Of a stretch of 64,000 bases of DNA, positions 38,041 to 44,262 are shown piece by piece. The DNA is from Myxococcus xanthus (GTDB lineage: Bacteria; Myxococcota; Myxococcia; Myxococcales; Myxococcaceae). Position 1 is the first letter of the stretch. Every line of letters starts with the position of its first letter. The stretch covers positions 372,001 to 436,000 of the forward strand of contig NZ_FNOH01000003.1 in NCBI RefSeq assembly GCF_900106535.1, given 5' to 3'. Both the position numbers and the translations under genes were made by a program. Under the pieces are notes generated by a model. That model worked only from the letters and a program-made list of their open reading frames with translations. It was not told where the DNA came from and did not search any database.

Positions 38041-38058
38041 GCAAGCCCCTGTGCTTGC
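38041..38058. terminator. Inverted repeat between the two lipoprotein genes
   Basis: GCAAGC and GCTTGC arms of 6 bp enclose a 6-nt loop, 46 bp after the first lipoprotein's stop and 38 bp before the second's start. It may be a weak terminator or an operator; there is no T-run. Confidence 0.3.
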
Positions 38059-38096
38059 GCCTTGACCTGAGTGCATGGAGGGGCTGTTCTGACTCC

Positions 38097-39929
38097 ATGC
38101 ACTCGGGAACCCTGCGACTCGCTGGACTGTTTCTCATCATGGCGGCCTGCGCCACCCGTCCCACGCCCGTCATTCCCGCTCCTTCCTCGATCCCCGTCGT
38201 AGTGACGGCTCCCAAGCCGCTCCTCACGGTGTTCCGCCTCGAACCGGATGGGACAAGCGCTGAGTTCGGGCAGTTGCCACCAGGGCCCGAAGGCTTCGCC
38301 CCACCTGACACGGGCAACTGGTACGCAGAACCCTTGCGCCCCGTGCGTACCGAAGCGGAGGCTCGCGAAATCGCCGCCGTGTTGCGCGAGCATCACGTGC
38401 CCGAATTGTCCTTTGGCGCGGTCGGCGTTCCAGCCCCTGAGCTGCTCGTGGCCCTGCTCCAGGAGTCTGGTGTCGTCGCGCTTCAGGTGTCTGGCACGGA
38501 CTTCGGCAATGCGCACCTCGCCTCGCTGGAAAACGCGACCCAGCTCGAAGCCCTGCACCTCAATGCCACCCGAGTCACCAACGTGGGGCTGGCTCCTCTC
38601 AAACGAATGCGACGACTGGCAGTGCTGCGGCTGGACGAAACGCCGGTCTCCGACGCAGGCCTTGCGTCGCTGTCAGAGCACACCACCCTGCGTCGAGTAA
38701 CCCTCGCCGGAACAGCCGTATCCCCCCAGGGACTTGGATTCCTCGCGAGGCAACCGGGGCTGGAGGAACTCGACCTGTCAGATACCGCGGTGGACGACAC
38801 CGTCCTCGCAGTGCTGCCGGGCGCCCCGTTGCACACGCTCAACCTCAGCGGAACGAAAGTCACGAATGCCGGCCTCCGCGGCCTCAGCGCCATGCCCTCC
38901 CTTCGGCGGCTGGGCCTCGCGCGTACCGCTGCCTCAGACGCCAGCCTCTTGCACATCACGGGACTCCGTGAACTGGAAGCCCTCCACCTGGGCAGCACTC
39001 AGGTGACGGACGCCGGCTTGCTCCACCTCGCGAAACTGCCCGCGCTTCGTGCGCTGGTTCTCAGCAAGGCGCGAATCCGAGGCGCAGGACTTCGCCACCT
39101 CGCGGGCCTCTCTCGACTGGAAGCGCTTCACCTCGACGACACGCTCGTGGGCGACTCAGCGCTGCGCCATCTTCGAGGACTCAACGAGCTGAGAGAGCTT
39201 GACCTCTCGCGCACCGCCATCACGGGCACGGGACTTCAAGAATTGAGCACCCTGGTGGCGCTCGAATCACTCTGGCTCTCAGGGCTCGCGCTGACGGACG
39301 ATTCCCTCACGGCACTCGCTCCCCTCAGCCAACTGACGCGACTCGCGCTCAGCCACACGCCGATTGGCCCGGAGGCGCTGAACCACCTGGGTTCCCGCCC
39401 ACTCCTGCGACACCTGGACTTGAGCAAGACCGGGTTCACCGACGAATGGGTGCCCTCCATACGGCAGGCCTTTCCCGGCCTCCATTCATTGAAAGCCGAA
39501 CGCACCCTCCTCACGGACGCGGGGCTGGGCCAGTTCGCCGAATGGACAGAGCTGGAGGCAATCCATGTCGCGGGGACTCTCATCAATGGCTCTGGCCTGA
39601 CGCGCCTGCACACCCTTGCCCGACTCACGACGCTCGACCTCGGCGCGACGAGGTTGGACTCAGAGGGCCAGAAAGCGCTCCAGGGCTTCACGAAACTCGT
39701 CTGGCTGAGCGTCGCCGGCGTCCGCACCGGCGACGAGATGCTTGGCCACCTCCCCCGTTCGCTCCGAACCCTCTACCTGACGCGCACGAAAGTCACCGAC
39801 GCGGGCCTCCCGGCGTTGCACAAGCTGCCACACCTGCGGGAACTCGACCTGCGCGGAACCGCGGTTTCCACAGAGGCCCGGAGCGCCCTGGCACGGGAGC
39901 GCGGCATCCACCTCGTCACTGGGATGTGA
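38097..39929 (+). CDS. Leucine-rich-repeat lipoprotein
   Basis: A 610-residue protein with a lipoprotein signal (LFLIMAACAT, C18), a 130-residue Pro-rich/linker region and then about 19 leucine-rich repeats of 24 residues to the end. The repeat pattern is LxxLxLxxTxVTDAGLxxLxxLxx, resembling RNI/cysteine-containing LRR types found in planctomycetes and myxobacteria. Such solenoids bind proteins; a surface adhesion or recognition role is a guess. The start ATG at 38097 immediately precedes the signal peptide; an upstream in-frame ATG would add 14 residues. It converges on larE. Confidence 0.8.
   Translation: MHSGTLRLAGLFLIMAACATRPTPVIPAPSSIPVVVTAPKPLLTVFRLEPDGTSAEFGQLPPGPEGFAPPDTGNWYAEPLRPVRTEAEAREIAAVLREHHVPELSFGAVGVPAPELLVALLQESGVVALQVSGTDFGNAHLASLENATQLEALHLNATRVTNVGLAPLKRMRRLAVLRLDETPVSDAGLASLSEHTTLRRVTLAGTAVSPQGLGFLARQPGLEELDLSDTAVDDTVLAVLPGAPLHTLNLSGTKVTNAGLRGLSAMPSLRRLGLARTAASDASLLHITGLRELEALHLGSTQVTDAGLLHLAKLPALRALVLSKARIRGAGLRHLAGLSRLEALHLDDTLVGDSALRHLRGLNELRELDLSRTAITGTGLQELSTLVALESLWLSGLALTDDSLTALAPLSQLTRLALSHTPIGPEALNHLGSRPLLRHLDLSKTGFTDEWVPSIRQAFPGLHSLKAERTLLTDAGLGQFAEWTELEAIHVAGTLINGSGLTRLHTLARLTTLDLGATRLDSEGQKALQGFTKLVWLSVAGVRTGDEMLGHLPRSLRTLYLTRTKVTDAGLPALHKLPHLRELDLRGTAVSTEARSALARERGIHLVTGM
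38544..39911 (+). repeat. Array of about 19 leucine-rich repeats (72-bp unit)
   Basis: Protein-level repeats of 24 residues beginning with LEALHLNATRVTNVGL and ending near the C-terminus. The unit is degenerate at DNA level, so it is old duplication rather than a recent tandem expansion. Confidence 0.75.
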
Positions 39930-39969: not shown

Positions 39970-40866
39970 TCAGCTCACCACGGGCAGTGAAAAGCCCTCC
40001 GGCTTGCCTGTGCCCCCCGGCCGCGCCACACCCGCCGCGTCATTCATGCGGCCCGAGCGGAACGGCTCCAGATCCAACGCCACGAACTTGAACCCCAGCG
40101 CCAGGAACGCGGTGTTGATCTTCTGCCGCACGTCCGCCGCGAGGAAGCGTTCGTACTCCTCCGCCGCGACCTCCAGCCGCGCCACGTCCTGGTGGTACCG
40201 CACGCGGAACTGTCGGAAGCCCAGCTTGCGCAGCTCCGACTCGGCGGCGGCGACCTGCAGCAGCCGATCCCGCGTCACCGCCGTGCCGTAGGGAATCCGC
40301 GACGCCAGGCACGCCATCTGCGGCTTGTCCCACGTCGGCAGCCCGAGCGACTGGCTCCACGCCCGGATCTCCTCCTTCGTCAGCCCCGCCTGCGCCAGCG
40401 GCGACACCACCTGGTGCTCCTGCGCCGCCTTGTGGCCGGGCCGGTGGTCCTTGAAGTCGTCCGCGTTGAAGCCGTCCAACACCACCGCCAACCCCAGCGA
40501 CTTCCGCTGCGCCTCGCAGATGTCGTACAGCTCCGTCTTGCAGAAGTAGCAGCGGTTCGTCGGGTTGGCCGCGTACTGCGGGTTCGCCAGCTCGTTGCTG
40601 CCCAGCACCACGTGCCGGGCGCCCAGCCGCGTCGCCAGCTCGCGGGCCTCGTCGGCCTCCTCCGGCGCCACGGACGCGGACAGCGCGGTGAGCGCGAGCG
40701 CCCGGTCGCCCAGCTCCTCCACCGCCACCTTCAGCACGAAGGTCGAATCCACACCGCCGGAGAACGCCACCAGCGCGCTGCCATGGGCCCGCAGCGCGGC
40801 ACGCATCAACTCCAGCTTGGGGCGCGACGACTCACACAGGGACTTGATCCGCTCGGGGCTCAACAT
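39970..40866 (-). CDS. larE: LarE-like ATP-dependent sulfur transferase (PP-loop)
   Basis: A 298-residue PP-loop enzyme. The pyrophosphatase loop is FSGGVDS at 35-41. In LarE the enzyme AMPylates pyridinium-3,5-biscarboxylate mononucleotide and inserts sulfur to build the nickel-pincer cofactor of lactate racemase. Here C106 and C109 (NRCYFCK) plus C186 (QMACLASRIPYG) give a three-cysteine pattern; family members with three such cysteines are reported to use an iron-sulfur cluster as sulfur carrier rather than sacrificing one cysteine. No larA, larB or larC is in the window. It follows cysC by 98 bp on the same strand and lies near a sulfur-carrier operon. Confidence 0.82.
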   Translation of the reverse strand: MLSPERIKSLCESSRPKLELMRAALRAHGSALVAFSGGVDSTFVLKVAVEELGDRALALTALSASVAPEEADEARELATRLGARHVVLGSNELANPQYAANPTNRCYFCKTELYDICEAQRKSLGLAVVLDGFNADDFKDHRPGHKAAQEHQVVSPLAQAGLTKEEIRAWSQSLGLPTWDKPQMACLASRIPYGTAVTRDRLLQVAAAESELRKLGFRQFRVRYHQDVARLEVAAEEYERFLAADVRQKINTAFLALGFKFVALDLEPFRSGRMNDAAGVARPGGTGKPEGFSLPVVS

Positions 40867-40964: not shown

Positions 40965-41738
40965 CTAGCGAGCCTTCCGCTTCGCGGCCTTCTTCGCCGC
41001 CGCGGCCGGCTTCGCCACCCGGGCCGCGCGCGTGGCCGGACGGGCCTTGGCGCCCTTGTCCGCCTTCGGCGCCTTCGCCGCGGGCTTGGACTCCTCGGCG
41101 CGGCGGGCCTTGGCGCCACCCTTCTCGGCCTTCTCAGCCTTCTCCCCCTTCGCGGGGAGCGGGTTGGCCTTCATCTTCTTGCCGGTGATGACCTTCAGCT
41201 CCTCGGTGCTCATGTAGCCGAGGTCCAGAAGCGACTGGAAGATCTTCGCCGCGCCGTCCTCCACCGACTCCACGTTGGAGTGGATGGTGACCTCCGGCGA
41301 GTTGGGCGGCTCATACGGCTCGGTGATGCCGATGAAGTTGGGGATCTCCCCGTTGAGCGCCTTCTTGTAGCGGCCCGTGCTGTCGCGCTCGATGAGCTTC
41401 TCGGTCGGGCAGTCGACGTAGACTTCCACGTAGCGACCAATCGACCGGCGGTTCTCCTCACGGCCCGGCTTGTACGGGCTCACGCAGGGTACCAGCGCCG
41501 CCACGCCGTTTCGCGTCAGCAGGTTCGCCACGAAGCCCAGCCGCTTCACGACGGTGATACGGTCCTCCTTGCCATCCCCCAGCCCCGCCCACAGCGCCTC
41601 GCCAAGTTCACCCTCGTCGAGGATCTCGACGTTGCGACCCACCTGCCGCAAGCGCGCGGCGATGTAGGCGGCGGTGGTGCTCTTCCCGGTACCGGACATG
41701 CCGGTCAGCCAGAGGGTGAAACCAGTGTTGGAGGCCAT
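40965..41738 (-). CDS. cysC: Adenylylsulfate kinase-like protein with Lys/Ala-rich tail
   Basis: A 257-residue protein whose first 185 residues match APS kinase, which phosphorylates adenosine 5'-phosphosulfate to PAPS. The P-loop is GMSGTGKST (13-21); SPYKPGREENRR and VYVDCPTEKLIERD follow, with the C-terminal IHSNVESVEDGAAKIF. The usual DGDxxR motif after the P-loop reads LDEGELGEAL, so APS binding may differ. Residues about 190-257 form an unusual tail of Lys, Ala, Pro and Arg that resembles histone-H1-like tails. It probably starts a transcript from a good promoter and precedes larE. Confidence 0.75.
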   Translation of the reverse strand: MASNTGFTLWLTGMSGTGKSTTAAYIAARLRQVGRNVEILDEGELGEALWAGLGDGKEDRITVVKRLGFVANLLTRNGVAALVPCVSPYKPGREENRRSIGRYVEVYVDCPTEKLIERDSTGRYKKALNGEIPNFIGITEPYEPPNSPEVTIHSNVESVEDGAAKIFQSLLDLGYMSTEELKVITGKKMKANPLPAKGEKAEKAEKGGAKARRAEESKPAAKAPKADKGAKARPATRAARVAKPAAAAKKAAKRKAR

Positions 41739-41930: not shown

Positions 41931-42344
41931 TCAGCCCGTTCGTAACACGAAGTTTCCCTCAAGCCACTCATACTCCGACACGTAGTGAACACAGCCGCGA
42001 TGTACGGATCCGATGAGATAGGAAACATCTGGGAGCAACGGATGCCCCTCCGGAGCCGCCCGCAGCAGGTCCTCCCGGGAGAAGGTGGCCGGTGCATCCA
42101 CATGCGAGTGGAACACGCACACCACTCGCTCTGACCGTACATCCGCGTCCATGCAGACGGCCAGCCACTCCTCGGGCGCGAAGGCGTACGCCACGCGTGG
42201 GTTGTCGGCGGCATTGCGCAGGGGGCGGATCCGCAGGGCGCCCGACCCCTCCGCGCGGAGGATCACCCCACAGCCCTCGAACGGATACGCGGCCTCCAGG
42301 TGACGTCCCACCTCGTCGAGGATGTGCTCGGGCCAGTGACTCAC
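41931..42344 (-). CDS. JAMM/MPN metalloprotease (Mec-like)
   Basis: A 137-residue JAB1/MPN+ protein with the whole zinc-protease motif: E23 (PFEGCG), H79-x-H81 and S89xxD92 in FHSHVDAPATFSREDL. In sulfur-carrier systems this class either trims residues after the C-terminal GG of a pre-carrier or, as in the Mycobacterium Mec protein, cleaves the carrier-cysteine adduct. The nearby carrier already ends in GG, so adduct cleavage is more likely (inference). Its ATG overlaps the upstream E1-like gene by 4 bp. It ends the operon. Confidence 0.88.
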   Translation of the reverse strand: MSHWPEHILDEVGRHLEAAYPFEGCGVILRAEGSGALRIRPLRNAADNPRVAYAFAPEEWLAVCMDADVRSERVVCVFHSHVDAPATFSREDLLRAAPEGHPLLPDVSYLIGSVHRGCVHYVSEYEWLEGNFVLRTG

Positions 42345-42982
42345 GACTCGGCGGGCGGCTCACGGCCCGCGCAGCGCGAGCACCTGCGCATTTCCATCTC
42401 CTCCACGGTTCCAGGTGCCACCAACCACCGGCCGCCCAGCGCGGGGCCCAGGCCCAACCGCAGCCGCTGAAACACGAGCGCTCCCAGCGTCCCCACGGCC
42501 ACGCCCAGCGCCCCATCCGGGGGCGAGCCCAGGTGCCGCACCGTCTCGCCGAAGCACCAGAGGCACCCCTCGGGGCCTCGGAAGACAACGGCGGCCCGCA
42601 TGCCGTCGCCCCCCAGCGCCACCCAGGGCGCCTCGCCACTCCACGCCGCGGGCAGCTCCGCCACCAGCCCGCCCCCCTGCCCCACCGCGCCCGCGTCCGG
42701 ATTCAGCGCGGGCACCTCGCGGGCCAGCGCCTCCGTCACGGGCAGGCCCACGTCGGAAGGCCCCATCAGGAAGCCCGGCGCCCAGGGCCCCAGCGTCAGC
42801 GAGCCCGCGCCCGTCACCGGCGTGCCACCTCCCGCCAGGTACGCCGCCGCCGTCAGCCCCGACGCGCCAATGCCATCCAACCGCGCCGTGCCCGCGAGCA
42901 GGGACTCCTGGCCACGTCCGCCCACCTCGCGCAGGAGGATCTGCCGGGAGTAGCGCAGGATCTGATCTTCGCGCAGCGCCAT
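42341..42982 (-). CDS. E1-like pseudo-enzyme carrying the arginine-finger segment
   Basis: A 213-residue ThiF/MoeB-fold protein. Residues 8-25 are a textbook E1 N-terminus, LRYSRQILLREVGGRGQE, in which the second arginine (R13) equals the arginine finger that acts on the partner subunit in MoeB/ThiF dimers. The following nucleotide loop is decayed (DGIGASGLTAAAY in place of VGAGGLG), and the catalytic Arg, Lys and Asp motifs are absent. A CLWC and a final CSRC may bind zinc. It lies 5 bp after the carrier gene and overlaps the JAMM gene. I infer it is the non-catalytic half of a heterodimeric E1 with the MoeB-like protein. Confidence 0.78.
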   Translation of the reverse strand: MALREDQILRYSRQILLREVGGRGQESLLAGTARLDGIGASGLTAAAYLAGGGTPVTGAGSLTLGPWAPGFLMGPSDVGLPVTEALAREVPALNPDAGAVGQGGGLVAELPAAWSGEAPWVALGGDGMRAAVVFRGPEGCLWCFGETVRHLGSPPDGALGVAVGTLGALVFQRLRLGLGPALGGRWLVAPGTVEEMEMRRCSRCAGREPPAES

Positions 42983-42987
42983 GGCCG

Positions 42988-43260
42988 TCAGCCCCCCGCC
43001 ATGGCGGGGATGAGGGTGATGCGGTCAGCGTCCTTCACCGGCGTGTCCAACCCGTTCAGCGCGCGGATGTCCTCGTCGTTGAGGAACACGTTGACGTAGC
43101 GCCGCACCGCGCCGCGCTCGTCGAACACCCGGCCGCCAATGCCCGGGTGGCGCGCGTCCAGGTTCTTCAGCACCTCACCCACGGTGGCGCCGGGAGCCGC
43201 GACTTCCGCCTGATTGCCAGTGAAGCCCCGCATCGGAGTAGGAATACGAAGGGTCGCCAT
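42988..43260 (-). CDS. MoaD/ThiS/CysO-like sulfur carrier
   Basis: A 90-residue beta-grasp protein starting MATLRIPTPMRGFTGNQ. Visible features are the typical VGEVLKNLDARHPGI segment, VNVFLNDEDIR, and a C-terminus of IPAMAGG ending exactly in diglycine. E1-type enzymes adenylate such a C-terminus and convert it to a thiocarboxylate, the sulfide donor for cysteine, methionine, thiamin or molybdopterin synthesis. The closest pattern is CysO of Mycobacterium (cysteine route), but the acceptor enzyme is not in this window. It lies between the TusA-like and E1-like genes. Confidence 0.85.
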   Translation of the reverse strand: MATLRIPTPMRGFTGNQAEVAAPGATVGEVLKNLDARHPGIGGRVFDERGAVRRYVNVFLNDEDIRALNGLDTPVKDADRITLIPAMAGG

Positions 43261-43267
43261 GACTCAC

Positions 43268-43498
43268 TCACCTGCCTTGCTTGCGGAGCACCAGCCGGTG
43301 CGTCCCGTCCGGGAGCGCGTCCAGGGACACGACCTCGTGGCCCTCGTCGCGCGCGTTGCGAGGCACGTTCTTCAGCGGCTCGGTGCCCCGAAGGAGCACC
43401 TCCAGCAACGTGCCCGGCTCCAGTGATTCCAACTTCAGCTTCGTCCGCACGTAGGTCATCGGACAGACCTCGCGGGTGATGTCCAGCCTCGCCGTCAT
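43268..43498 (-). CDS. TusA/SirA-like sulfurtransferase
   Basis: A 76-residue protein with the TusA signature: LDITREVCPMTYVRTKLKLESL, with conserved C12-P13 as persulfide carrier. The start is the ATG at 43498, which overlaps the end of the upstream E1/MoeB-like gene by 4 bp, so it is translationally coupled. The frame is open further upstream but unrelated. TusA proteins pass persulfide sulfur between enzymes; here it is a likely sulfur donor to the MoaD-like carrier (inference). Confidence 0.85.
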   Translation of the reverse strand: MTARLDITREVCPMTYVRTKLKLESLEPGTLLEVLLRGTEPLKNVPRNARDEGHEVVSLDALPDGTHRLVLRKQGR

Positions 43499-44262
43499 GT
43501 CGCGCACGCCTCCGGAGACTCCGGGTACGCGGGGATGGCCGTGACTCGACAGCCCTCGCAGTCCGGTGCCCGCGCCACGCGTGTCCGCCGTCCCAGGATC
43601 GACACCGCATCCAGCACGTGCAGCGTAGCCTCGCCCTGCCCACCTCGCGCGGCGCCCGACAGCAGCTCCAGCGCCAGCAGGGCCTGCACCGCGCCCACCA
43701 GCCCCGCCAGCGAGCCGAGCACCCCCGCCTGGGCACACGTGGGCACGGCATCCGGCGGAGGCGGCGCTTCATAGAGGCAGCGCAGACACGGCCCCCCCGG
43801 GTCCACGCGCATCGCCTGGCCCTGCATGCGCAGCACACCGCCATAGATGAGCGGCACGCCCGTCAGCACCGCCACGTCCGACAGGAAGAACTTGGTGGCC
43901 ACGCCATCCGTGGCGTCGATGACGGCGTCATGCGCGCGGAAGAGCCCCTCCGCGTTGCTCGCGTCCACGCGCTCGGGGATGGCCTCCGTGCTCAGGCCGG
44001 GAAAGGCCCGCGCCAGGCCCGCCGTCGCGGACTCCGCCTTGTTCCGGCCCACGTCTTCGCCCCGGTGCCAGAGCTGGCGCGGCAAGTTCGTCACGTCCAC
44101 GCAGTCCGGATCCGCCAGCGTCAGGTGCCCGACACCGGCCTGGGCCAACGCCAACGACGCCGGGCATCCGAGCCCGCCAGCCCCCACCAGCAGTACGCGC
44201 GCGCGCTCCAGCCGGGACGCATGGGGAATTCGGGGGTGGTGGTCTGTACCGTGGCCATGCAT
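43495..44262 (-). CDS. MoeB/ThiF-type E1 (catalytic subunit) lacking the N-terminal RYxRQ segment
   Basis: A 255-residue E1-like adenylyltransferase. The nucleotide loop is VLLVGAGGLGCPAS (24-37); DPDCVDVTNLPRQ includes R62, GRNKAES has K75 and DATDG has D119, the catalytic set. Zinc pairs are C159/C162 (CLRC) and C235/C238 (CEGC), and the MoeB/UBA3-type loop cysteine is C176 (VPTCAQAG). The protein begins MHGHGTDHHPRIPH, so it lacks the conserved RYSRQ arginine-finger region; about 20 codons read upstream in frame contain neither the motif nor a start. The missing part occurs in the E1-like pseudo-enzyme of the same operon. It is the first gene of the five. Confidence 0.88.
   Translation of the reverse strand: MHGHGTDHHPRIPHASRLERARVLLVGAGGLGCPASLALAQAGVGHLTLADPDCVDVTNLPRQLWHRGEDVGRNKAESATAGLARAFPGLSTEAIPERVDASNAEGLFRAHDAVIDATDGVATKFFLSDVAVLTGVPLIYGGVLRMQGQAMRVDPGGPCLRCLYEAPPPPDAVPTCAQAGVLGSLAGLVGAVQALLALELLSGAARGGQGEATLHVLDAVSILGRRTRVARAPDCEGCRVTAIPAYPESPEACAT

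Follow-up and report, generated by a model that had tools for sequence, protein, structure and literature searches.

A putative two-gene E1 of the MoeB type in myxobacteria, with a pseudo-enzyme predicted to supply the RYxRQ arginine

The window analyzed here, a stretch of 64,000 nucleotides from Myxococcus xanthus (positions 372,001 to 436,000 of contig NZ_FNOH01000003.1, assembly GCF_900106535.1), holds five genes packed on its minus strand (44262..41931) in the order E1a, TusA, MoaD-like carrier, E1b and JAMM protease. E1a is a catalytic MoeB/ThiF-like adenylyltransferase that lacks the N-terminal RYxRQ helix, and E1b is a pseudo-E1 that keeps this helix and has no catalytic residues. From sequence and genomic context we consider it probable that the two proteins are the halves of one heterodimeric MoeB-type E1, in which E1b would donate the RYxRQ helix and TusA would sulfurate the carrier. 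That E1a and E1b work as a functional pair is well supported by the comparison of genomes presented below.

The preliminary description of this DNA had noted a single direction of the genes, neighbors either overlapping by 4 bp or lying at most 7 bp apart, and this layout is borne out. E1a (43495..44262) overlaps by 4 bp with the gene of a TusA-like sulfur-relay protein (43268..43498, Pfam TusA 8.1e-18), the predicted persulfide donor. After a gap of 7 bp comes a MoaD/ThiS/SAMP1-like sulfur carrier with a Gly-Gly end (42988..43260; Pfam ThiS 4e-17; NCBIfam SAMP1 62.6 bits against a cut-off of 60), and 5 bp further on lies E1b (42341..42982). E1b in turn overlaps by 4 bp with a JAMM/Prok-JAB metalloprotease that starts with GTG and presents the motif HSHx7Sx2D (41931..42344; Pfam Prok-JAB 1.2e-19); its top NCBIfam match is a desampylase, under the cut-off.

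The two E1-like proteins

E1a has 255 amino acids and consists of a ThiF domain only (Pfam ThiF 3.7e-61), without a catalytic-cysteine or ubiquitin-fold domain. Its best solved relative is E. coli MoeB (2.3e-40), in which G41, R73, K86 and D130 align with G30, R62, K75 and D119 of E1a; these four MoeB positions are given as active-site residues in a review (PMC12355090). The GAGGLG nucleotide-binding loop (residues 27-32, 44167..44184), R62 (44077..44079), K75 (44038..44040), D119 (43906..43908) and the loop cysteine C176 (43735..43737), all named in the preliminary description, are confirmed by translation and alignment. Among 38 chosen homologues, a set that excludes two decayed E1a proteins (genomes G036 and G038), the loop glycines (G27, G29, G30 and G32) are invariant together with N59, R62, Q63, K75, D116 and D119, and C176 is kept in 97%. 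The absence of a RYxRQ start is equally secure. The alignment with MoeB begins only at E1a residue 17, the start codon of many homologues lies just 5-15 residues ahead of the nucleotide loop, and the frame read back to the upstream stop contains no such motif, which rules out a helix hidden by a mis-called start or a frameshift. The AlphaFold2 (AF2) model of E1a has a mean predicted local distance difference test score (pLDDT) of 91.6 and a predicted template modeling score (pTM) of 0.88, with a loose N-terminus.

E1b presents the complementary pattern, as previously proposed: LRYSRQ is present at its N-terminus, the Rossmann loop is degenerate and the catalytic residues are absent. The RYSRQ codons (residues 10-14, 42941..42955) include that of R13, the predicted arginine finger. 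The Pfam ThiF match is limited to residues 11-96 and falls below the cut-off (E 1.9e-4), and a profile of E1b searched against the PDB finds ThiF and MoeB, placing R13 on residue 11 of ThiF and residue 14 of MoeB. The AF2 model of E1b, built from a 46-row alignment, has a mean pLDDT of 95.6 and a pTM of 0.92. Compared with solved chains, this model matches MoeB (Z 19.0, 199 residues, 2.7 Å), ThiF (Z 18.9) and SAE1 (Z 18.1, 195 residues, 2.9 Å), which we count as tied, followed by APPBP1 (Z 17.6). Of these, SAE1 and APPBP1 each form the inactive half of a eukaryotic E1. These matches, made with a predicted model, show a shared fold and not a shared function.

The arginine is among the most constant positions of E1b. 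In an alignment of 29 rows E5, R13, G21, G24, Q25, L28 and G53 are invariant; in one of 46 rows drawn from several families, with a mean column identity of 37%, this is still true only of R13, Q25 and G53. The rows of both alignments were chosen by a pattern that contains the arginine, and the invariance of R13 in them is therefore partly built in. For this reason E1b was also located independently of the motif, by its residues 31 onward, and its start was placed by residues 3-30 without residues 10-14. With this procedure 97 of the 103 loci with an E1b core could be placed, and position 13 is an arginine in all 97. The other six are the E1b of G036 and G038, whose N-terminus is lost, two contig fragments, and two proteins that by reading carry RYARH (G137) and RYLRQ (G085). 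The segment around the motif is also the better conserved part of the protein: the mean top-residue fraction is 0.68 for residues 1-30 without 10-14 and 0.42 elsewhere, a contrast reached in none of 20,000 position permutations.

The ratio of non-synonymous to synonymous substitution rates (dN/dS) of E1b is 0.14-0.27 in nine pairs, which denotes purifying selection. Conservation in many genomes and this selection place E1b beyond chance, and the dN/dS values, the conserved residues and the confident model rule out a pseudogene. The length of its body varies. In family f3, which we take to be Anaeromyxobacteraceae, E1b has about 230 residues and a Rossmann loop that is still readable though dead; it has 148 residues in G137 and 88 in G087. 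The 88-residue protein retains RYARQ, plus four cysteines.

Co-occurrence, joint loss and fusion

Operon-type E1 loci were compared in 106 genomes, namely 84 of the 96 genomes of the family and 22 from the order, class and phylum; the latter were picked from hit lists and are not a full sample. The table omits paralogue loci (L002, L189, L199, L200 and L205-L209) and second contigs (L138, L140 and L142). First-look counts of 91/96 and 95/96 include a MoeB-rhodanese paralogue and were not used for co-occurrence. Shortened E1s make up 104 of the 106; of the other two, that of G019 runs into a contig edge and that of G145 is full-length. RYxRQ is missing at its canonical place in all 104 assessable E1s that are not full-length (102 without any match, while G048 and G137 have RHRRA and RHKRA elsewhere in the protein). 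An E1b start with a RYxR-type motif is found at the same locus in 100 of the 105 non-full-length cases, and all 18 of the f3 genomes examined at the operon (of 24) have both E1a and E1b. The co-occurrence of truncated MoeB and pseudo-E1 that the preliminary description would lead one to expect in myxobacterial genomes is thus found, with one real exception. Five genomes have no E1b motif at the locus: in G008 E1b sits on another contig (L140), in G013 the contig stops after TusA, G036 and G038 are the decayed cases described below, and G160 is the exception. The sole full-length E1, that of G145, carries RHSRQ itself; TusA, MoaD, cysteine synthase and JAMM adjoin it, and no E1b was found at its locus. 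From this one genome, the arrangement of G145 looks like the ancestral state.

A scan for loci related to E1b returned 26, all titled myxobacterial except one titled Comamonas; no further search of other phyla was made. The closest named matches are records of Myxococcus, Pyxidicoccus, Citreicoccus and Corallococcus, plus some myxobacterial metagenome-assembled genomes. The locus titled Comamonas sp. KCTC 72670 (L065) has a Myxococcus-like operon and an E1b 87% identical to that of the window, and its label is probably wrong. As a separate observation, the operons of genus g26 (L119, L123-L127 and L133) and three loci of other genera (L115, L117 and L128) have E1a, TusA and E1b with no MoaD between TusA and E1b.

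Loss of the genes provides a further view on the pair. Eight of the 12 family genomes without an operon E1a (three of genus g3, three of genus g7 and two of genus g8) keep MoaD, JAMM, adenylyl-sulfate (APS) kinase and LarE in order, and neither a profile search nor tblastn with near relatives found a trace of E1a, TusA or E1b at these eight loci. Other members of g3, g7 and g8 retain all five genes. In the remaining four genomes the contig intervenes: in G083 it breaks off at E1b, on the side where E1a would lie, and in G050, G082 and G086 the contig ends. The joint absence of E1a, TusA and E1b with MoaD and JAMM kept argues that E1b tracks E1a and TusA, and not the carrier or the protease. 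In two g8 genomes (G036 and G038; L110 and L111) TusA is gone and the N-terminus of E1b is lost while MoaD and JAMM are kept; the E1a frame is still open, yet N59, R62, D119 and C176 are substituted.

Fusions, read as open frames in the genome data, join several of the partners. E1b and JAMM share a single frame in G046 and G081 (L130:3801-4937 and L134:2799-4358). In G128, G130 and G131 MoaD continues in frame into E1b (L187:3839-5083, L191:3306-4277 and L201:3189-4313); the junction comes right after Gly-Gly, so that exposing the end of the carrier would take a cut, which JAMM might make. In G137 E1a and TusA are fused in frame (L179:5335-6249) and are followed, in the same frame past one stop codon, by the 148-residue E1b. 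In the tree the E1b rows form one group (100/99) with long branches that the program flagged, and the E1a rows separate into two main clusters, between which lie MoeB paralogues; E1a needs three changes. These paralogues and the long branches leave the tree compatible with a split that arose once or twice.

Proposed mechanism and competing explanations

The structural logic of a divided E1 can be proposed by analogy with MoeB. E1a would bind ATP and the MoaD-like carrier and adenylate the C-terminal glycine of the carrier. E1b would pair with E1a in the manner of the second subunit of the MoeB dimer and supply its N-terminal RYxRQ helix, from which R13 would reach the ATP phosphates in E1a. 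With R13 supplied in trans by E1b, there would be one active site per dimer. TusA would then pass sulfur to the carrier adenylate to give the thiocarboxylate, and JAMM may release carrier that is bound in adducts or fusions. The physical dimer, the position of R13, the chemistry and the end product are what we infer from these data. Arg11 of ThiF and Arg14 of MoeB, the residues on which R13 is placed, are named arginine fingers (PMC13139853). In Uba4 the second subunit is reported to complete the nucleotide site with its Arg18, and adenylation drops strongly in the R18A mutant (PMC7527816).

Several points weigh against this scheme. The same account that names the fingers reports the arginine as non-essential in MoeB and ThiF; in yeast Tcd1 the R59A change lowers the product by just 26%, which is not significant, and TcdA is without this arginine (PMC13139853). 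With the arginine important in Uba4 and not in MoeB, ThiF or Tcd1, E1b may serve assembly or stability as much as it serves to bring the arginine. In G160 (L204) the E1 has no RYxRQ and no E1b is found at the locus, where MoaD, cysteine synthase and JAMM adjoin; this protein groups in the tree beside the E1a of f3 (98/92), and it indicates that a finger-less E1 can exist alone. Several loci of f3 and g26 are without MoaD in the operon. Operon conservation by itself also yields co-occurrence of neighbors, though MoaD and JAMM remain in the joint losses. The complementation put forward in the preliminary description therefore stands in part: genomic co-occurrence, complementarity of the residues and joint loss speak for it, and the need for the arginine is put in question by the reports on MoeB and ThiF.

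The principal competitor follows directly from these points. E1b could be a structural partner that stabilizes an otherwise unstable E1a deprived of its helix, R13 being dispensable for catalysis. Tcd1 is reported to keep Tcd2 soluble while its R59A change costs only that 26% (PMC13139853), G160 manages without motif or E1b at its locus, and G21, Q25 and L28 in the same segment of E1b are conserved as R13 is, or nearly. A stabilizing role alone sits poorly with an arginine kept in all 97 placed E1b while much of the protein varies, and kept again in the 88-residue stub; we regard it as unlikely. We find it harder still to credit that E1a acts alone as a homodimer, like the finger-less E. coli TcdA, and that E1b has a separate role, for example docking TusA, MoaD or JAMM. 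The MoaD-E1b and E1b-JAMM fusions do bring E1b near these partners, and the g26 loci keep E1b without MoaD. However, E1b is missing along with E1a and TusA from loci that retain MoaD and JAMM, it is not found at the locus with the full-length E1 (G145), and a docking role predicts no conserved arginine of the MoeB type. The degenerate Rossmann loop, the lost catalytic residues and the further decay in G036 and G038 could also suggest that E1b is a functionless, decaying duplicate. This explanation is already contradicted by the low dN/dS in the nine pairs and by a protein found in several families with a compact, confident model and conserved residues, and we give it almost no weight. A heterodimeric E1 in which E1b brings the RYxRQ helix to E1a is the explanation that we prefer.

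Neighbors, known systems and significance

Beyond the operon, on the same strand, lie two conserved neighbors: an APS kinase (40965..41738; NCBIfam apsK above the cut-off) and LarE, a PP-loop sulfur transferase (39970..40866; NCBIfam TIGR00268 318.7 bits, cut-off 150). APS kinase is present in 67 of the 68 fetched loci of at least 6 kb, and 66 of these 67 also contain LarE. LarE as an obligate partner of the E1 pair is not supported, as it is present in 12 of the 12 family genomes without an operon E1a. Its retention there, together with LarC in 40 of 41 relatives, indicates that LarE may simply serve the synthesis of the nickel-pincer cofactor. No E2 family matched among the seven operon and neighbor proteins scanned; the rest of the genome was not searched for E2. 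A defense system finds no support either: 30 PADLOC families touch E1a, the 25 listed all being partial E1-E2 models, and PADLOC gave no defense-model match for TusA, MoaD, E1b or JAMM. Adjoining LarE on the opposite strand is an open frame (38055-39929) whose long product is leucine-rich-repeat-like and may begin as a lipoprotein.

The operons of eight genomes (G044, G045, G048, G051, G087, G145, G156 and G160) include a cysteine synthase, which suggests that cysteine is built on the carrier there, as it is in mycobacteria. By this analogy, an ancestral operon of full-length E1, TusA, MoaD, cysteine synthase and JAMM probably served to produce cysteine in the way of the mycobacterial CysO-CysM-Mec+ system. 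Both systems have a ubiquitin-fold carrier and a protease, which in mycobacteria releases cysteine. They differ in that CysO is activated by the rhodanese-fused MoeZ, whereas here E1a, E1b and TusA would take this place and the Myxococcus operon is without cysteine synthase (PMC3227635). In the genome of the window the nearest match to that enzyme, found outside the operon, is 37% identical.

Operons of this general type have been described. Row 4e of Table 1 in Iyer 2006 combines ThiS/MoaD, JAB, SirA/TusA, adenylylsulfate kinase and a rhodanese-less E1, a gene content that the locus of the window matches; in the part accessible, one E1-like protein is mentioned and no inactive E1 partner (PMC1779556). 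With E. coli MoeB and ThiF the pair has in common the fold, the nucleotide loop, the catalytic residues, the position of the RYxRQ arginine and the type of sulfur-carrier substrate. Those enzymes are homodimers in which each chain combines the two functions, whereas here the finger segment and the catalytic residues are on separate proteins. The eukaryotic SAE1-SAE2 and NAE1(APPBP1)-UBA3 resemble our pair in combining an active with an inactive adenylation subunit, here encoded by separate genes that co-occur (with the exception of G160). They differ from it in that E1a has no cysteine or ubiquitin-fold domain, no E2-like gene is seen in the operon and E1b is much smaller (down to 88 residues). 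A bacterial origin separate from the eukaryotic E1s is likely.

Another parallel is yeast Tcd1-Tcd2, where an inactive paralogue is reported to donate the arginine finger to the active one. That system acts in tRNA ct6A synthesis, Tcd1 has a whole ThiF domain plus a C-terminal domain, and its finger is reported as non-essential (PMC13139853). BilD, the E1 of the bacterial BilABCD system, is also asymmetric, with an inactive and an active adenylation half, but both are on a single chain with a cysteine domain and an E2 is in the operon; here two genes stand beside TusA and MoaD (PMC11354881). The preliminary description presented the pattern as apparently undescribed. This holds for bacteria as far as the accessible full-text literature goes, where no description of a two-gene E1 of this kind was found, although a mention in a 2009 paper on the E1 superfamily is possible; it does not wholly hold for an inactive half donating an arginine, as has been reported for Tcd1-Tcd2. 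To judge from these sources, neither this type of operon nor the asymmetry of E1s, on record for eukaryotes, BilD and Tcd1-Tcd2, is new, and the bacterial E1 split over two genes appears to be.

A wider proposal, for and against which we find the case evenly balanced, is that the myxobacteria made a two-subunit E1 separately from the eukaryotes, that its inactive subunit shrank, to 88 residues in one lineage, until it was nearly a portable arginine-finger module completing the active site in trans, and that in one lineage the carrier comes from a MoaD-E1b precursor cut at Gly-Gly. If true, this precursor would couple the supply of the carrier to that of its activating subunit, in the manner of ubiquitin fusion precursors. 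Eukaryotic E1s are thought to derive from MoeB-like homodimers whose halves became unequal. The same step seems to have occurred in bacteria, and here its intermediates are visible, from a full-length E1 alone, through E1a with a near full-size pseudo-E1 and with smaller ones, to the 88-residue stub. The system thus opens to experiment the questions of how a cell comes to depend on an inactive half, what minimal part of that half is enough, and whether the arginine finger, which is disputed, aids catalysis.

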